DNA of 39,375 nt from a virus, in IMG/VR virus record IMGVR_UViG_3300029893_000029, positions 1-39,375 of that record, one strand, 5' to 3'. The translations under genes and the position numbers were made by a program. The notes under the pieces were generated by a model. It ran no database searches, was not told the origin of the DNA, and saw only the letters and a program-made list of their open reading frames with translations. Each line of letters opens with the position of its first letter. Positions within the stretch are counted from its first letter, which is position 1. This document shows positions 6,914 through 24,279 of the stretch, piece after piece.

Positions 6914-7118
6914 GGTAGGCAAAGCGATCAAATCATTTACTTGCGCGAACCTACCTCGACCAAAGTTCCCCGTCCCGCGACTTCGGTCCGAAAGCTCGGT
7001 AGATGCGGATAAGCCAACGACTACCCTGACGGGCAACGAGGAACCTCACGCCAATGAGTTCCCGAATAAAACCGAATAGCAGTATGTAAGGCGACATCGT
7101 CAAGGTGTCGTTTTGTGC
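6914..7118 (+). ncRNA. Putative structured small RNA of about 205 nt
   Basis: No convincing ORF lies here. Several paired segments are visible: GGTAGG 6914-6919 with CCTACC 6950-6955; GTTCC/CCGTC 6965-6974 with GACGG 7028-7032 and GGAAC 7040-7044; GAC-UUCG-GUC at 6979-6988; GGTAG 6998-7002 with CTACC 7021-7025. A terminator closes the unit. It is either a stand-alone RNA or the leader of the 7.2-kb operon. I do not recognise the family. Confidence 0.5.
7092..7114 (+). terminator. Intrinsic terminator
   Basis: A 7-bp stem CGACATC/GGTGTCG (7092-7098 with 7104-7110, one G-T pair) with a five-base loop is followed by TTTTGTGCTTTT. It separates the 6.9-kb RNA from the downstream operon, or acts as an attenuator for it. 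Confidence 0.65.
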
Positions 7119-9880: not shown

Positions 9881-10053
9881 AGACCCTCAAGCAGATATGC
9901 CCGCATTGTCGCCAGATCATGAACGCGAAAGTGCAGGGCGAGATATTCGAGCACGACGGCAAGACGACGTACATTCTGTTTTGTACGGTCTGTCATAAAA
10001 CCTACCGTCTCGCGGTCGAGTATCCATTATTTGAACCCCCTACCAAAAAGTAG
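9877..10053 (+). CDS. Small zinc-ribbon protein
   Basis: A 58-aa protein. ATG 9877 overlaps the upstream stop (ATGA) and follows AAGGAGG. Two knuckles CPHC and CTVC, spaced about 30 residues apart with beta-like sequence between, form a classic zinc ribbon. It is the last gene of the operon and is followed by a strong terminator. Function unknown. Confidence 0.7.
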   Translation: MKTLKQICPHCRQIMNAKVQGEIFEHDGKTTYILFCTVCHKTYRLAVEYPLFEPPTKK

Positions 10054-11277: not shown

Positions 11278-11345
11278 TTTATCGATGGATATTTTACGGG
11301 GCGTTGGTTTTGGCGTGGGTGGGAGTTATCCACTTCCTCCCGTAA
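11268..11345 (+). CDS. 25-aa transmembrane microprotein
   Basis: ATG 11268 lies inside the end of the preceding 22-aa ORF, in another frame. The product is a single hydrophobic helix (IFYGALVLAWVGVIHFL) with MVLIYR at the start. It ends just before the promoter of the large structured RNA. Tandem overlapping single-helix peptides suggest a small membrane-active pair; inference only. Confidence 0.4.
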   Translation: MVLIYRWIFYGALVLAWVGVIHFLP

Positions 11346-11353
11346 CCGTTTTT

Positions 11354-11362
11354 TGGTATAAT
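11354..11362 (+). promoter_or_regulatory. Extended -10 promoter of the large structured RNA
   Basis: TTGGTATAAT ends at 11362, matching the window-wide extended -10 consensus; no good -35 is visible. It is the only strong promoter-like site before the roughly 560-nt structured non-coding region. Confidence 0.65.
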
Positions 11363-11368
11363 GTAGGC

Positions 11369-11925
11369 GAGTAGTATTTACAACCGAGGTGGGTTTCGTT
11401 TTCTGGGCGGGGCGCAAGCCCTGTACCGCCAGCGCGCGCACGAAGTCGAGTGCTAGGAGTAGTTGCTCGATGATAACTGTAATAAGCGGTAAGCCCAGAA
11501 AACCAAGCCCATCTCAAAAGTAGTGAGTAGAGATGTGTGCGGGTGGCGCAAAAGGGAGACGCTATATCTTGCGATTTAGTCACGCAAGATGAAACTAACC
11601 TAAGGTTGATAGTCCTTGCGGTGTTTCTGACCTTGACCGGCAGTAAAAGATTTTACGGGAGCAATACCCGATGAAGCGAGCCGCAAAAAGTCCTGTTGAG
11701 TGACCATAGGGAAGCGTCAACCGTTAGGATGATAGCGACCCGAAACAAATCTCAACCCCGCACACTTCCCTGCTCATTACCAACTTCGTTCCTTCTGCTC
11801 CCTAGCCGAAAGGTTAGGGTGTCAAGGTTAGGGTGTCATTGTAAGTTCCTTACTTGATTGGGGTGTAAATCGGCGAAGCAATTCGCCCCGCAACCAGCCA
11901 TCACAATCAAGTGGGGAGCAGATGG
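11369..11925 (+). ncRNA. Large, three-domain structured RNA of about 560 nt, family unrecognised
   Basis: No plausible + ORF covers this stretch, but long-range complementarity is extensive. Domain 1: 11386-11393 with 11508-11515 (8 bp) and 11398-11408 with 11493-11503 (11 bp perfect), enclosing a GCAA-loop hairpin 11410-11421. Domain 2: 11525-11530 with 11770-11775 and 11535-11543 with 11757-11765 (9 bp), enclosing 11566-11573/11583-11590 (8 bp), 11616-11621/11681-11686, 11643-11656 and 11695-11700/11751-11756. Domain 3: 11794-11802 with 11914-11922 (9 bp), 11853-11860 with 11904-11911 (8 bp), GAAA hairpin 11800-11819 and GCAA hairpin 11872-11887. Size and phage setting recall the large ornate RNA classes (GOLLD, ROOL); identity is not established. 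It ends 12 nt before the next gene. Confidence 0.75.
11810..11837 (+). repeat. 14-bp perfect tandem duplication in the structured RNA
   Basis: AAGGTTAGGGTGTC occurs twice back to back (11810-11823, 11824-11837). The first copy forms the 3' side of the GAAA hairpin with 11800-11807. The second could replace it, offering alternative pairing. Confidence 0.9.
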
Positions 11926-11936
11926 AATGAAAAATT

Positions 11937-12125
11937 ATGGGAAATCCCGGACAAAAACCGAAACGCGTAAGCAAAACCTTCTCTAGGACATATACCCTCG
12001 CGGAATGGAAAGAAATGGCTCCGCTTATTTTGCCTATTCTTCACGAGGTTTTTATGAGAATGGAAGTAAAGAAGGAACGGGCGCGGCACGAGAAAAACGA
12101 GATAAAACCTACCCAATTTGAATAA
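11937..12125 (+). CDS. Small basic protein, C-terminus apparently replaced by insertion
   Basis: A 62-aa protein from ATG 11937, highly charged, with an aromatic helix TLAEWKEMAPLILPILHEVF in the middle. It ends IKPTQFE at TAA. The same codons (IKPTQF) recur at 12876-12896, where the frame continues DPIVNS to a TAG. This suggests the original C-terminus lies beyond the inserted methyltransferase. The methyltransferase start (TTG 12118) overlaps its end. Function unknown. Confidence 0.6.
   Translation: MGNPGQKPKRVSKTFSRTYTLAEWKEMAPLILPILHEVFMRMEVKKERARHEKNEIKPTQFE
12101..12121 (+). repeat. Direct repeat, left copy (flanks methyltransferase)
   Basis: This 21-bp sequence, starting GATAAAACCTAC, recurs at 12876-12896 with one mismatch. 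The two copies bracket the methyltransferase gene, as expected for a duplication made by insertion or recombination. Confidence 0.85.
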
Positions 12126-12861
12126 AGTTATAAAATTGGGAAGGCACCGCGTTTTATGCGGCGATTCCACAAAAAGAGAAGACGTGGAGATTTTAATGGG
12201 CGGTGAATTTGCTGACCTATTTCTCGTCGATCCTCCGTATGGAGTTTCTTACATAGAAAAGAATGCCGCCGTGAGCGGCGGCATTGTGAAGAATATGGAG
12301 GGCAAAAAGATTTCTTCAGACGAAAAATCCCTTGACGATATAAGAGTAATTTGGAAAGAAATAGCACAAAACGCATACGACTTTTCTACTAATGAAGCAA
12401 GTTATTTATGGTTTGCGTGTCAGGGGGGCGACCAGATGATGATGATGATGATGATATCTTCGGTGGGGTGGAAAGTTCGGCACGAACTAATATGGGTGAA
12501 GGATAGTTTTGTTTTAGGACGCGCGGACTATCACTATCGGCACGAACCGATACTTTATGGATGGAAACAAAAGGGCAAGCATCATTTTTATGGCGATAGG
12601 AAGCATTCAAGCATTTTGGAGTTCAAGCGACCAAAACGTTCTGATTTTCACCCCACATCAAAACCAATAGAATTGTTGGAGTACCTGATAAGAAACCACT
12701 CGAAAGAAAATGATATTGTTTTGGATTTGTGCGGTGGCGGTGGGAGTACATTAATTGCTTGTGAGAGAACAAATCGAAGATGTTTTATGATGGAAATCGA
12801 CCCGATGTATGTTGATGTTATAGTTGAGAGATATAATAGTTTTCAACCGCGATTGTCGTAA
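12118..12861 (+). CDS. DNA adenine methyltransferase, DPPY type
   Basis: A 247-aa protein from TTG 12118. It begins LGRHRVLCGDSTKR, the usual entry to the catalytic domain of ParB-linked phage methyltransferases, but no ParB domain precedes it. DPPYG (residues 38-42) is catalytic motif IV. WVKDSFVLGRADYHYRHEPILYGWK and HPTSKPIELLEYLI follow. The SAM site DLCGGGGSTLIACE lies near the C-terminus, giving the beta-class order. It likely methylates phage DNA against host restriction. Six consecutive Met codons sit at 12436-12453. The gene is AT-richer than its surroundings and is flanked by direct repeats. Confidence 0.85.
   Translation: MNKVIKLGRHRVLCGDSTKREDVEILMGGEFADLFLVDPPYGVSYIEKNAAVSGGIVKNMEGKKISSDEKSLDDIRVIWKEIAQNAYDFSTNEASYLWFACQGGDQMMMMMMISSVGWKVRHELIWVKDSFVLGRADYHYRHEPILYGWKQKGKHHFYGDRKHSSILEFKRPKRSDFHPTSKPIELLEYLIRNHSKENDIVLDLCGGGGSTLIACERTNRRCFMMEIDPMYVDVIVERYNSFQPRLS
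12436..12453 (+). repeat. (ATG)6 trinucleotide run inside methyltransferase
   Basis: Six tandem ATG codons encode six Met residues between CQGGDQ and ISSVGW. Slippage here would lengthen or shorten the protein in frame rather than switch it off. Confidence 0.95.
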
Positions 12862-12875
12862 ATAGCCAAAACCCC

Positions 12876-12896
12876 GATAAAACCTACACAATTTGA
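12876..12896 (+). repeat. Direct repeat, right copy
   Basis: This is the partner of 12101-12121 (one C/A difference). Read in the frame of the 11937 gene, it continues IKPTQF-DPIVNS-stop and so appears to preserve the original end of that gene downstream of the methyltransferase. Confidence 0.85.
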
Positions 12897-12901
12897 CCCT
12901 A

Positions 12902-12930
12902 TTGTAAATAGTTAGGGACTGTGCTATAAT
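12902..12930 (+). promoter_or_regulatory. Promoter with extended -10
   Basis: TTGTAA (12902-12907), a 17-nt spacer and TATAAT (12925-12930) preceded by TG. Predicted start is about 12937-12940, so an ATG at 12940 would be leaderless. Confidence 0.75.
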
Positions 12931-12939
12931 ACCCGTACA

Positions 12940-13071
12940 ATGAAAACCTTGAGAAACCTAACAATCAAAGGTCCCTATCGGTGGCAGGTCGTGCGTTTAC
13001 TCTCAAGGTTTTCTCACGACCTCCGGCCGATGGGGATTTTTCGTTGGGGATCTGGTAAGGCGCACGAGTAA
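12940..13071 (+). CDS. Possible leaderless 43-aa basic peptide
   Basis: The frame is open from ATG 12940 to TAA 13071 and gives a Trp/Arg-rich peptide (MKTLRNLTIKG...QVVRLLSRFS). It lies entirely within strongly self-complementary sequence, so the coding potential may be accidental. If translated, the ribosome would unfold the pseudoknot described for 12943-13041, giving an attenuation-like device. Low confidence as a gene. Confidence 0.3.
   Translation: MKTLRNLTIKGPYRWQVVRLLSRFSHDLRPMGIFRWGSGKAHE
12943..13041 (+). ncRNA. Interlocking hairpins (pseudoknot or attenuator) ending in terminator
   Basis: Two perfect pairings interleave. 12943-12954 pairs with 13001-13012 (12 bp). 12973-12981 pairs with 13027-13035 (9 bp, one G-T) and 12986-12993 with 13015-13022 (8 bp). 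The order A-B-A'-B' is that of an H-type pseudoknot. The B/B' hairpin alone, followed by ATTTTTCG, is a terminator. Formation of A/A' would compete with it only topologically. It starts at the promoter's +1. Confidence 0.65.
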
Positions 13072-13345
13072 TTTCGCGCGTCTTTTAGGTTCCACAAACA
13101 CGATAGGTAGCGTCCTTTCGGAGCAACGGACGAGAAAAACCGCTCCGCCGCCTCGTGTCTTCCGTATAATCCCCGCTCCCGTGGCCCATAGGACGGGGGA
13201 CTTCCGGAGGACAAGAGGCAAGATTGAAGGCGTAGGGGGATAGACAAGCCCTGTTCACCGCCGCAGGGACATTCCCGAAGCCTTTACCTTCTCGTAATAT
13301 CCTCACTAACTTGTTTCCCTTGCTAGGAAGGAGACAAGGGCAGGC
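13072..13345 (+). ncRNA. Further structured non-coding stretch after the terminator
   Basis: No supported ORF. Visible pairings: 13119-13124 with 13142-13147 (6 bp), 13151-13164 with 13205-13218 (13 of 14 bp), inner 13171-13175 with 13194-13198, 13249-13253 with 13264-13268, and 13317-13322 with 13335-13340. The region may be the 3' part of a roughly 400-nt RNA produced by read-through from 12930, or a separate RNA. Family unrecognised. Confidence 0.4.
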
Positions 13346-13379
13346 GGTATGAAGGAACGATGGCGCGGAAGAAATAACT

Positions 13380-13478
13380 ATGACCGGAAAGATTATACAC
13401 GGCGATGCGCTTGAAGCTTTGAAAACGTTCCCCGATGAGAGCGTGGATTGTTGTATAACTTCTCCTCCCTTATTGTAA
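13380..13478 (+). pseudogene. N-terminal remnant of a DNA methyltransferase, cut at motif IV
   Basis: 32 codons from ATG 13380: IIHGDALEALKTFP...DCCITSPP then LL and TAA. GDALE.LKT.P and TSPP are the first segment and catalytic motif IV of beta/N4-type methyltransferases; nothing of the rest follows. The protein resembles the N-terminus at 14042 over its whole length. The break falls directly after TSPP, and the HNH gene with its own promoter follows. Best read as the 5' stump of a methyltransferase interrupted by the HNH element. Confidence 0.7.
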
Positions 13479-13502
13479 TATAATACCGTATTGTGATATA
13501 AT
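13473..13502 (+). promoter_or_regulatory. Promoter of HNH gene (leaderless)
   Basis: TTGTAA (13473-13478), an 18-nt spacer and TATAAT (13497-13502) preceded by TG. The HNH ATG at 13509 lies 6 nt after the -10. The -35 overlaps the stop codon of the methyltransferase stump. A second TATAAT at 13479-13484 falls in the spacer. Confidence 0.75.
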
Positions 13503-13508
13503 GTAGGC

Positions 13509-14057
13509 ATGCAGGATAAACTTGGCAGATTTATTAAAGGAACGCATTGGCGACCCTGGAGGCCGTTTTGGGACAAGGAATGGCTTGAAAATGAATATGT
13601 TACGAAGAAAAAATCCGCCTCGGAGATTGCTAAAACTTTTAATGTTAGAGATACGGCGATTTATTTTTGGCTTAGAAAGCATGGAATCAAAACCCGCACA
13701 ATTTCAGAAACCCGGAAAGTTAAATACTGGGGACTTTTGGGGAAAAAGAATGGAATGTATGGAAAGATTGGGGAACTCAATCCTCGTTGGAACGGTGGAC
13801 ACTCACCAGAGAGACAATCGAAATACGCTCGTGCCGCGTGGAAAGAATTGGCAAAATGCATTCTCCGACGCGATAGTTTTCACTGTAGAAAATGTGGTGT
13901 TGCCAATCGTGTTGGCAATAAATTGGTCGTTCACCACAAAAGGCAGTGGTCGAAGTATCCTGAATATAGATTTGTTGTAAGTAACCTCATAACAGTTTGC
14001 GAAAAATGTCACAAGGAGATTCACAAAAAGAAACCGGAGGGATGGTTAATTCCATAA
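13509..14057 (+). CDS. HNH homing-type endonuclease
   Basis: A 182-aa basic protein. It starts QDKLGRFIKGTHWRPWRP, then a helix-turn-helix-like segment KKSASEIAKTFNVRDTAIYFWLRKHGIKTRT (about 33-63), as in homing nucleases that use an HTH to read DNA. The C-terminal HNH domain reads CRKCG, VVHHKRQWSKYPEYRF, NLITVCEKCHKEIH (about 127-173). It sits between two methyltransferase N-termini and overlaps the second (ATG 14042). Likely a mobile nuclease whose target is the methyltransferase gene. Confidence 0.85.
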   Translation: MQDKLGRFIKGTHWRPWRPFWDKEWLENEYVTKKKSASEIAKTFNVRDTAIYFWLRKHGIKTRTISETRKVKYWGLLGKKNGMYGKIGELNPRWNGGHSPERQSKYARAAWKELAKCILRRDSFHCRKCGVANRVGNKLVVHHKRQWSKYPEYRFVVSNLITVCEKCHKEIHKKKPEGWLIP

Positions 14058-15072
14058 TTTGTGGGGACGCATTATGCGTACTCAAAACGCTTCCATCGGA
14101 ATTGGTGGATTGTGTAATCACGTCCCCTCCGTATTATTAGGCCTCCGCGATTACGGCGTATCCGGACAACTCGGCCTTGAAAAGACACCCGGAGAATATG
14201 TTGCTAAACTGGTAGAGATTTTTCGTGAGGTTCGGCGCGTACTAAAAAACGAAGGAACGTTGTGGTTGAACTTGGGGGATAGTTATGCGGCCGGAGGCAA
14301 TGGTGGTGGAACAGAAAAGCGGGACAGCAACCGGGGTACTCGCGCGCTTACTGGTAAAGCAAAGAAAGCACCGGAAGGATTAAAACCCAAAGACCTTGTA
14401 GGTATCCCGTGGATGGTAGCGTTTGCCCTTCGCGCCGACGGTTGGTATCTTCGTCAGGACATTATATGGGCGAAACCAAACCCGATGCCCGAAAGTGTTA
14501 CCGACCGTTGTACCAAAAGCCACGAATATATCTTTTTGATGAGTAAGAATAAGAAGTATTTTTATGATGCGGAGGCGATAAAAGAAAATGGAGCTTGCCC
14601 CGACCCGCGAATGGTGGACGGTTTTGTTCCCAAGTCAGATAACGGGAAGCATAATGGAAAACCGCAAAGCGCGAGTGAGCGGCATAAAAACTTAAAACAA
14701 AAGGGACAAAAACCAAATACAATCCACATCGAACGCGCGAGAAAGCAAGACATGATTGGAAACCCAACGTATACAGGATTCAATGATAGGTACGTTCCGC
14801 GACAAATGAGAAATAAGCGCGACGTGTGGACGGTTACAACGTCCCCATTTCCCGATGCTCACTTCGCCACCTTCCCCGAAAAACTTATTGAACCGATGGT
14901 ATTAGCGGGTTGTCCGAAAGGCGGCACTGTTTTAGACCCCTTTATGGGCGCGGGAACGACTGGGGTGGTAGCAAAAAAACTCGGAAGGGATTGGCTTGGG
15001 ATTGAACTCAACGAGGATTACATAAAAATGGCGGAAAAAAGAATCCAACAAACTCCTTCCCCACTCCTCTAA
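14042..15072 (+). pseudogene. DNA methyltransferase (TSPPY type), frameshifted at motif IV
   Basis: The natural start is ATG 14042 (SIICGDALCVLKTLPSE, then DCVITSPPYY), which runs into TAG at 14138-14140. In the -1 frame the protein continues GLRDYGVSGQLGLEKTPGEYV to 15072 with WLNLGDSY, DIIWAKPNPMPESV, RDVWTV and the SAM site DPFMGAGTTG. Removing the two bases TA at 14138-14139 restores TSPPYYGLRDYG exactly. An alternative start at 14059 would lack the catalytic motif. The gene is therefore inactivated, sequenced with an error, or decoded by programmed frameshifting. The enzyme would be an N4-cytosine or N6-adenine methyltransferase. Confidence 0.75.
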
Positions 15073-18602: not shown

Positions 18603-18936
18603 TTATTGCGTAAAATTACAAGGGAAGGCAGAAATCCCCGAACCATTGAAAATCGGACATAACCTCCGCACCACAATAGAGGGAAGTATTACCTCTGAAA
18701 CTATTGAGGACAATGAGGATGGCTCATTTACCCACGTTTACAAGTTTGCGCCGGTACTGGTGGAACTTATCAAGGAAACGGGCGAAACCATCAAGGCGAA
18801 GGACGTAAGAAGCCGAGGCCAGCAATTACGAGGGGTCTTGTGGCGGCGGTGGAAAAACCTCAATGAACCCATCAGTTTTGAAGAGTATTACGACCAAGAA
18901 ATGACCCGCATTATAAGCCAAGAAATACGAGATTAG
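18595..18936 (+). CDS. Phage protein of unknown function
   Basis: A 113-aa protein overlapping the HNH gene by 8 nt. Beta strands (TTIEGSITSETIED, THVYKFAPVLVELI) are followed by the basic KDVRSRGQQLRGVLWRRWK and an acidic helix. Position beside a NinG-like nuclease suggests DNA metabolism. Proteins with VYKFxPV..EL followed by RSxS..LR occur in phages, but I cannot name a function. Confidence 0.5.
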   Translation: MDSYCVKLQGKAEIPEPLKIGHNLRTTIEGSITSETIEDNEDGSFTHVYKFAPVLVELIKETGETIKAKDVRSRGQQLRGVLWRRWKNLNEPISFEEYYDQEMTRIISQEIRD

Positions 18937-18947
18937 AGTTATCCACC

Positions 18948-22490: not shown

Positions 22491-22676
22491 ATGGTAGAAA
22501 AACAAGGAGTTCAGAGGACGTGTCCGGCGTGCCATGCGATCCTTTTTAAGGATTCGGACTTGGAGATAAAAGATGGAAGGGACAGGATTAGTTTCAAAAT
22601 GAGATGCCCGAAGTGCGGAAAACAACTAAAAGTGTCGGTGGGAAGTGATATAACCATTTACCAATATGAAGGGTGA
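22491..22676 (+). CDS. Zinc-ribbon protein upstream of GroEL
   Basis: A 61-aa protein. CPACHAILFKD and CPKCGKQLKVS form a standard ribbon (residues 11-46). It overlaps the chaperonin start by 11 nt, so the two are co-translated. It is not a GroES (no mobile loop, wrong fold). A link to chaperonin function is only positional. Confidence 0.65.
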   Translation: MVEKQGVQRTCPACHAILFKDSDLEIKDGRDRISFKMRCPKCGKQLKVSVGSDITIYQYEG

Positions 22677-24279
22677 CATTACCAATGTAAGTTTCGGCTC
22701 GGAACTCCGCGAAAAACTTTTACGCGGAGTGGACCTTATCGGAAATCAGGTTGGGCTTACGATGGGTCCTTATGGAAGGAACAACTTAATCGAACGTAGG
22801 GTACATACAGTTCCCATTGTGACGAACGACGGAAAGCGGGCAGCAAAGGCCATCAACCCGAAAGACCCCATTGAAAGGATGGTAGTACGGGCGCTTTCAA
22901 ACGCCGCCGAAAATACCGATCTCAAGACCGGCGATGGGACTACGGGAACGATTGTTTTAGCGCAAGCCATTATCCATACCGCGCTTGAAAAGATTTCCGA
23001 CCCTACCCATGAAAAACTCGGTATCAAAGCCAAAAAAATAAGCGTCGTCGCCCTCAAAAAAGAAATAGACAAGGCAAAGGAACTGGCGTTGGCGGAACTT
23101 AAAAAGCAAAGAAAGAAAATAAAAACCATTGAGGAACTCACCGATGTGGCGGTTACCTCCGTTGAGGATGAGAAGCTAGGGAAGATAATCGCCGAGATGG
23201 TGATGAAAATAGGCGAGAACGGCTATATCTTTGCGGAAGAAGGATTCACTTTTGAGACCGAGACCGAGGTTATTGAAGGTATGAAGTTTCCTGGCAAGGT
23301 GGCGGCGAATTTCATGCTCAATAATCCCAATAGGATGGAGTTGAGTTTGGAGAAAACGAAAGTATTGGTAACGAACATGACCGTAAAGGACATGGGCGAT
23401 TTTATAAAACCGAAGGGAGGTTCGGTGTTCGCCGACATTCAGGAGACCGGCGACCAGCATTGCGCTCTGATTGCGTGGAAGTTTGAAAAGAAATTTCTTT
23501 TGGACGTCGCCGATTTGTGGCGCAAGACGGGTTTTAGGATTTATTGTATCAAGGTTCCCGCCATTCTTACCGAGCAACTAAAGGATGTGGCGATTTACGT
23601 AGGAGGTTCTTTGTTGGACGAGAACCAGAACATGAAGATTTCCGATGCCCACGTGGAGAATATGGGACAAGTGAACCGTCTGACCGCGAACGCCGAAGAG
23701 TGCGTATTGGTAGGCGGACACGGAAAAAAGGAAGAAATCAAAAAGCGCATCAAGGAAATCGAAGAGCAAATAAAGATAGAGAAAATTCCCGAATTCAAGC
23801 CGAGATTAAAACAACGCATCGCCGACCTTTCAAGCGGAGTGGGGATTGTCCGGGTAGGGCATAACACGCAGTTGGAACAGCTCTACGTTCTTGATAAGGT
23901 TCAGGATGCAGTTTTAGCGACCAAAGAAGCCTTGCGGGACGGCGTGGTGAAGGGCGGGGGCTTGGCATTGAAGGAGATAGCGGAGAAGCTCCCCGAAAAC
24001 ATCCTTACCGAATCGCTTAAAGCTCCCTACCATAAGATACAGGAAAACGCCGGGGAAGAGTTTGAAATTCCCAAGAATGTGGTTGATCCGTACAATGTCA
24101 TTAAGGTTTCGCTTGAAAACGCATGCTCGGTGGCGGGGGCGCTCATTACGACCGGCGGGGCGATATACGACGAGGAAGATTATACCCTTGAAGATTTCAA
24201 GAACGAGATAAAGAAGTGGGCGGATAAGGTTGAGCGGAAGGAAAACCCAATACCCGAAGACCCCGCGCTCGATCGCTGA
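22666..24279 (+). CDS. groEL: Phage-encoded group I chaperonin (GroEL/Cpn60)
   Basis: A 537-aa protein, close to the usual 540-550. Equatorial ATP-site motifs: LTMGPYGRNN (32-41), NDGKRAAK, GDGTT (89-93), and VQDAVLATKEALRDGVVKGGG with the hydrolytic Asp at 414. The apical domain begins GYIFAEEGF...EVIEGMKFPGK. The end has VVDPYNVIKVSLENACSVAGALI, the GroEL C-terminal equatorial signature. The C-terminal GGM tail of cellular GroEL is missing, and an inserted Lys/Glu-rich helix (KKEEIKKRIKEIEEQIK) lies at about 364-380. It probably folds capsid or tail proteins. No GroES is visible in the window. Confidence 0.95.
   Translation: MKGDITNVSFGSELREKLLRGVDLIGNQVGLTMGPYGRNNLIERRVHTVPIVTNDGKRAAKAINPKDPIERMVVRALSNAAENTDLKTGDGTTGTIVLAQAIIHTALEKISDPTHEKLGIKAKKISVVALKKEIDKAKELALAELKKQRKKIKTIEELTDVAVTSVEDEKLGKIIAEMVMKIGENGYIFAEEGFTFETETEVIEGMKFPGKVAANFMLNNPNRMELSLEKTKVLVTNMTVKDMGDFIKPKGGSVFADIQETGDQHCALIAWKFEKKFLLDVADLWRKTGFRIYCIKVPAILTEQLKDVAIYVGGSLLDENQNMKISDAHVENMGQVNRLTANAEECVLVGGHGKKEEIKKRIKEIEEQIKIEKIPEFKPRLKQRIADLSSGVGIVRVGHNTQLEQLYVLDKVQDAVLATKEALRDGVVKGGGLALKEIAEKLPENILTESLKAPYHKIQENAGEEFEIPKNVVDPYNVIKVSLENACSVAGALITTGGAIYDEEDYTLEDFKNEIKKWADKVERKENPIPEDPALDR

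Follow-up and report, generated by a model that had tools for sequence, protein, structure and literature searches.

The window analysed here, a 39,375-nt phage record from IMG/VR, carries on its + strand a 562-nt stretch (RNA1, 11369-11930) that, going by its predicted fold, is best read as a genuine large phage RNA, specific to its lineage, that works through its folded shape. The start of RNA1 is placed from its promoter, and its 3' end is likewise a predicted one. We consider it very likely that a real, selected RNA structure is modelled here. The predicted folding energy of the + strand was -226.6 kcal/mol, and the z-scores in three sets of dinucleotide shuffles were -8.2, -10.4, and -12.2 (nearest-neighbour energies, 25-100 shuffles for each score). 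The minus strand was weaker (-192.9 kcal/mol, z -4.4 to -5.4), and the fold contained 23 G-U pairs on the + strand vs 10 on the minus strand. The greater stability and the larger number of G-U pairs point to an RNA of the + strand, not a DNA repeat, as the selected and most likely the folded molecule. No coding signal was detected in any frame of RNA1, while the adjacent ORFs scored positive; the first-pass annotation of this DNA had also listed no supported ORF.

The predicted fold consists of three consecutive domains (11386-11515, 11520-11780, and 11786-11930). Each domain was significant alone (z -6.6, -7.9, and -4.8, respectively), and the main closing helices had mean pair probabilities of 0.77-0.99. 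These values, with z of -8 to -12 for the whole, bear out the earlier proposal of a three-domain structured RNA of ~560 nt. Domain 1 is closed by a 22-bp helix (11386-11408/11493-11515, pair probability 0.99) and is predicted to contain a GCAA-capped hairpin (11409-11422) and an inner arm (11424-11491). Domain 2 is closed by another 22-bp helix (11520-11543/11757-11780, pair probability 0.99), which encloses a five-arm junction in the predicted fold. Domain 3 has an outer helix (11786-11799/11917-11930), a GAAA-capped hairpin (11800-11819), a 17-bp helix (11848-11865/11899-11916), and a GCAA-capped hairpin (11872-11887). The long-range pairings that had been noticed by eye are perfect: 11398-11408/11493-11503 (GTTTTCTGGGC/GCCCAGAAAAC, 11 bp), 11535-11543/11757-11765 (GTGTGCGGG/CCCGCACAC, 9 bp), and 11794-11802/11914-11922 (TCTGCTCCC/GGGAGCAGA, 9 bp). 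The 17-bp helix had not been listed, and the description of domain 3 was extended by it. RNA1 contains four perfect Watson-Crick arms of at least 9 bp vs 0.35 in shuffles, and the expectation for an 11-bp arm was 0.02.

GNRA tetraloops are typical of RNAs that pack tertiary contacts. The GCAA and GAAA caps reported earlier are present at 11414 (GCAA), 11808 (GAAA), and 11878 (GCAA), and these three GNRA-capped hairpins compare with 0.08 to 0.32 in shuffles. A tandem duplication at 11810-11837 (+ strand) is an exact 14 bp (AAGGTTAGGGTGTC twice). The alternative pairing suggested for it is possible, as the second AAGGTTAGGGTGTC copy can pair with 11800-11807, but it costs ~2.7 kcal/mol. When a longer transcript including the downstream ORF was folded, domains 1 and 2 were unaltered and the outer helix of domain 3 shifted, so that this helix is context-sensitive.

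An extended -10 promoter, recognised from sequence alone, precedes RNA1 at 11354-11362 (+ strand, TGGTATAAT), with a predicted transcription start at ~11369. The motif TGNTATAAT occurs 10 times over the window, always on the + strand (6899, 10061, 11354, 12922, 13494, 15338, 18967, 26824, 29516, and 38007); 0.6 were expected, and this count was reached in none of 100 shuffles. The RNA1 promoter therefore belongs to the phage's own set, and we take it, by its motif, to be a genuine phage promoter of a phage-wide class. Several of the sites lie directly at gene starts. The copy at 13494 shares TATAATGTAGGC with the RNA1 promoter, and a 33-nt stretch at the latter is 79% identical to that site. 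The start predicted from the 13494 promoter is the ATG of an HNH gene (13509), which is apparently leaderless; several genes behind these promoters look leaderless. A TTACGARC-like leader motif at about +17 is common to 26824, 29516, and 38007, and was weak by shuffle test. Approximately 20 nt upstream of the RNA1 -10 element lies GAGTTATCCAC (11323-11333, + strand), which has a DnaA-box-like core. Its only other copy in the window (18936-18946) is likewise placed before another TGNTATAAT (2 found, 0.01 expected).

Downstream, a 62-aa ORF of no known family (ORF62, 11937-12125, + strand) begins 6 nt past domain 3 and extends into the beginning of an N6/N4 DNA methyltransferase gene (methyltransferase 1, 12118-12861, + strand; PF01555, 9e-25; phrog_498, 8e-79). 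The start codon of ORF62 is unpaired in the predicted fold. No TGNTATAAT lies between RNA1 and methyltransferase 1, and no + strand terminator was found from RNA1 to the end of methyltransferase 1; terminators are few across the window (7085-7092, 10036, and 38057). Because no terminator intervenes and ORF62 follows after 6 nt, RNA1 would be the 5' part of the methyltransferase transcript unless it is processed, and it may thus head the ORF62-methyltransferase 1 transcript. Of the earlier claims, an own promoter is upheld, in the form of a member of a phage-wide set, and a separate transcript is not, since no terminator closes RNA1. The overall interpretation fared similarly: the structured RNA, the promoter, and the lack of an ORF or a family stood, and independence from the methyltransferase transcript found no support. 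Direct repeats of 29 nt (86%) flank methyltransferase 1 (12093-12121 and 12868-12896), as if it were a cassette.

A second structured non-coding stretch, RNA2 (~12937-13370, + strand), has z of -4.8 to -5.4, with only -1.9 to -2.6 on the minus strand. It lies behind its own extended -10 promoter (12922-12930, + strand, TGCTATAAT) and stops ~10 nt short of where a methyltransferase 2 fragment starts. The layout of RNA2 is that of RNA1, namely promoter, structured non-coding stretch, and methyltransferase. A perfect 12-bp arm of RNA2 (12943-12954/13001-13012) crosses a long helix through 12987-12993/13015-13021, and these crossing helices are predicted to form a pseudoknot or a switch. Homology between RNA1 and RNA2 was rejected, as the two were unrelated in sequence on comparison, and no relatives of RNA2 were found, with no match in phages. 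Methyltransferase 2 (13381-14140) looks disrupted: an N-terminal fragment (13381-13470) is followed by an HNH endonuclease gene (13509-14057), then by a second methyltransferase 2 N-terminus and the remainder in another frame. An apparent duplication at the RNA2 promoter in a copy from a metagenome-assembled genome (MAG) proved to be a scaffold gap (a run of N) between overlapping ends.

Contigs of the identical virus (99.9-100% identity, with RNA1 at 100%) were the only source of further copies. Their bin is a 'Candidatus Microgenomatus' MAG obtained from a mine in Africa, so that the host may be a CPR (Microgenomates) bacterium, a bin being weak evidence of a host. Terminase relatives up to 56-57% identical were found in other viral contigs; those relatives that carry a name belong to Bacteroidota phages. 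The phage also encodes a GroEL-type chaperonin (22666-24279; PF00118; phrog_5725).

No Rfam family matched RNA1 up to E = 10 with permissive filters. The ROOL model (RF03087) gave no match and was silent in control genomes too; the GOLLD model (RF02032) gave no match, and five control genomes gave only weak matches below the cut-off. No catalytic core of group I/II introns, RNase P, or tmRNA was recognised by the Rfam or ARAGORN models. These results agree with the first-pass annotation, which could not match RNA1 to GOLLD or ROOL and had named intron and RNase P models for checking. Homologues in related phage contigs, also sought at its suggestion, were not found, and no ORF-bearing homologue appeared. 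BLASTN against phages, plasmids, and 50 terminase-relative records gave no homologue of RNA1, nor did local BLASTN and nhmmer over the loci collected. A scan of IMG/VR with a 22-base pattern and with patterns of 15-16 bases taken from segments likely to be unpaired was also negative; the IMG/VR coverage consists of exact patterns and protein neighbours, and homologues may thus exist there. Those pattern matches that were inspected fell in coding sequence or were due to chance; a single phage family and its neighbours supplied many matches in the first set. Neighbour queries with the transglycosylase and the 62-aa ORF gave no relatives, and RNA1 was absent from the methyltransferase and terminase relatives.

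Single-sequence covariance models were built for domain 1 (R1), domain 3 (R2), and domain 2 (R3). Over the related phage records and the pattern-match loci, they returned the window itself, its minus strand, the same virus, and weak chance matches only. In 380 genomes of the presumed host phylum, R1, R2, and BLASTN returned only the same virus. An R2 match at E 2.4e-4 in another genome (L300) overlaps tRNA-Gln and was discarded. The models recover the MAG copy of the same virus, which indicates that the search works for close copies; built from one sequence each, they are of limited sensitivity to distant copies. On these comparisons, RNA1 seems to be a large phage RNA of a new, unclassified kind.

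Related phages contain other structured intergenic stretches. One of them, 560 nt long and situated ahead of the closest methyltransferase relative (L130:1694-2254, z -10), was examined as a counterpart of RNA1 and rejected, as it appears to consist of repeats and a terminator and is dissimilar to RNA1. Its repeated hairpins and terminator are followed by an ORF and by a methyltransferase that is longer and has an additional N-terminal domain. A structured intergenic stretch with long-range helices occurs at L104 13614-14010 (G016). In a terminase relative (G046), a structured non-coding stretch of ~430 nt (L117 2850-3281, z ~-5.7) with apparently crossing helices ends directly before tRNA-Met, and nothing in it matched Rfam above chance except the tRNA. 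This stretch may represent another class of GOLLD/ROOL-like RNA.

GOLLD and ROOL form homo-oligomeric RNA cages, and their function is unknown. In phages or prophages they are often found close to tRNA islands, which is a tendency and not a strict requirement. RNA1 resembles ROOL (574 model positions) in its ~560 nt, its structure, its phage or prophage setting, and the lack of an ORF. It differs in having no model score (with the control silent too), three serial domains, a methyltransferase neighbour, and no tRNA island. ROOL has multiple pseudoknots or kissing loops; no loop-loop complementarity of at least 6 bp was seen in the minimum-free-energy structure of the single RNA1 sequence. GOLLD is likewise a large ornate RNA of phages and prophages; compared with it, RNA1 is smaller, has no model score or counterpart of the conserved 3' region, and lies in a window with no tRNA over its 39 kb. 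Judged by model score and tRNA setting, RNA1 belongs to neither GOLLD nor ROOL. OLE, HEARO, raiA, group I/II introns, RNase P, and phi29 pRNA are other large or phage-associated structured RNAs, and RNA1 matched none of them (Rfam, E = 10). ColE1 RNA II is a structured transcript of ~550 nt with its own promoter, which RNA1 resembles in all three respects; however, nothing at RNA1 points to an origin, as the skew does not shift there and one DnaA-box-like site is present. RNA1 is like the large ornate phage RNAs in its size, its setting, and its fold of several domains (PMC12286853).

We propose that RNA1 would be a large non-coding, tertiary-folding phage RNA with three helical domains. Its own extended -10 phage promoter would drive it as the first element of a unit that also includes ORF62 and a DNA methyltransferase; RNA1 would be released or accumulate as RNA and act in trans through its shape. 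Like GOLLD and ROOL, though distinct from both, it would serve as a scaffold or as a self-assembling particle. From the modelled fold and by analogy, we give such a trans-acting ornate RNA about an even chance and favour it over a cis-acting leader. It is favoured by the strong z-scores to which all three domains contribute, the GNRA tetraloops, the strand asymmetry, the lack of a coding frame, the promoter class (10 vs 0.6), the ROOL-like length and phage setting, and the persistence of domains 1 and 2 in a longer transcript. Against it stand the lack of a homologue, and so of covariation support, the lack of a terminator and of an adjacent tRNA, unlike GOLLD and ROOL, and the lack of loop-loop pairing of 6 bp or more in the predicted structure. 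The stop 6 nt before the ORF also fits a structured 5' leader on the ORF62-methyltransferase 1 mRNA, controlling its stability or translation in cis, with RNA2 as the analogous leader of methyltransferase 2. We regard this as rather unlikely. Its strongest argument is that two units of promoter, long structured stretch, and methyltransferase lie side by side; RNA1 and RNA2 end 6 and ~10 nt before an ATG, and no terminator separates RNA1 from the gene, though the phage has one at 10036. However, the ORF62 start codon is not sequestered in the predicted fold, and 560 nt with three GNRA-capped hairpins goes beyond what phage leaders are known to need. The apparently leaderless gene at 13509 also indicates that leaders are not required in this phage.

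The remaining readings are improbable. As a replication pre-primer or origin transcript like ColE1 RNA II, RNA1 would hybridise with the template and prime replication. The similar size, the own promoter, and a DnaA-box-like TTATCCAC just upstream, which also occurs before the non-coding stretch at the closest methyltransferase relative (L130:1782), would fit; but there is one box only, GC skew is unchanged at 11.3 kb, no adjacent replication gene was recognised, and the stretch in that relative is made of repeats. We see a similarly slight chance that RNA1 is a self-splicing intron, a retroelement, or another known ribozyme that has diverged strongly or decayed. HNH/homing genes are abundant in the region, and one of them seems to disrupt methyltransferase 2, whereas the permissive Rfam search was negative, no split exons surround RNA1, and the N-terminal part of the methyltransferase 1 relatives was not found upstream. 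It is hardly more probable that RNA1 is a non-functional intergenic stretch with chance or repeat-derived pairing. It has no homologue and occurs in a single lineage, and intergenic stretches of relatives reach z of -4 to -10, some from repeats, terminators, or tRNA. The GNRA count, the strand asymmetry, the three independently significant domains, and the promoter argue against this.

Apart from those of the ribosome, few RNAs this large and complex are known. We tentatively suggest, at somewhat less than an even chance, that a CPR (Microgenomates) phage carries a new class of ornate RNA and, 1 kb downstream, the unrelated RNA2, both behind extended -10 promoters and before DNA methyltransferase genes. 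If this is true, RNA1 would add a further unrelated class, from a phage possibly of a CPR bacterium, and would be a new example to solve. It would also suggest that phage lineages evolve large structured RNAs time and again, and that these are overlooked for lack of conserved sequence.
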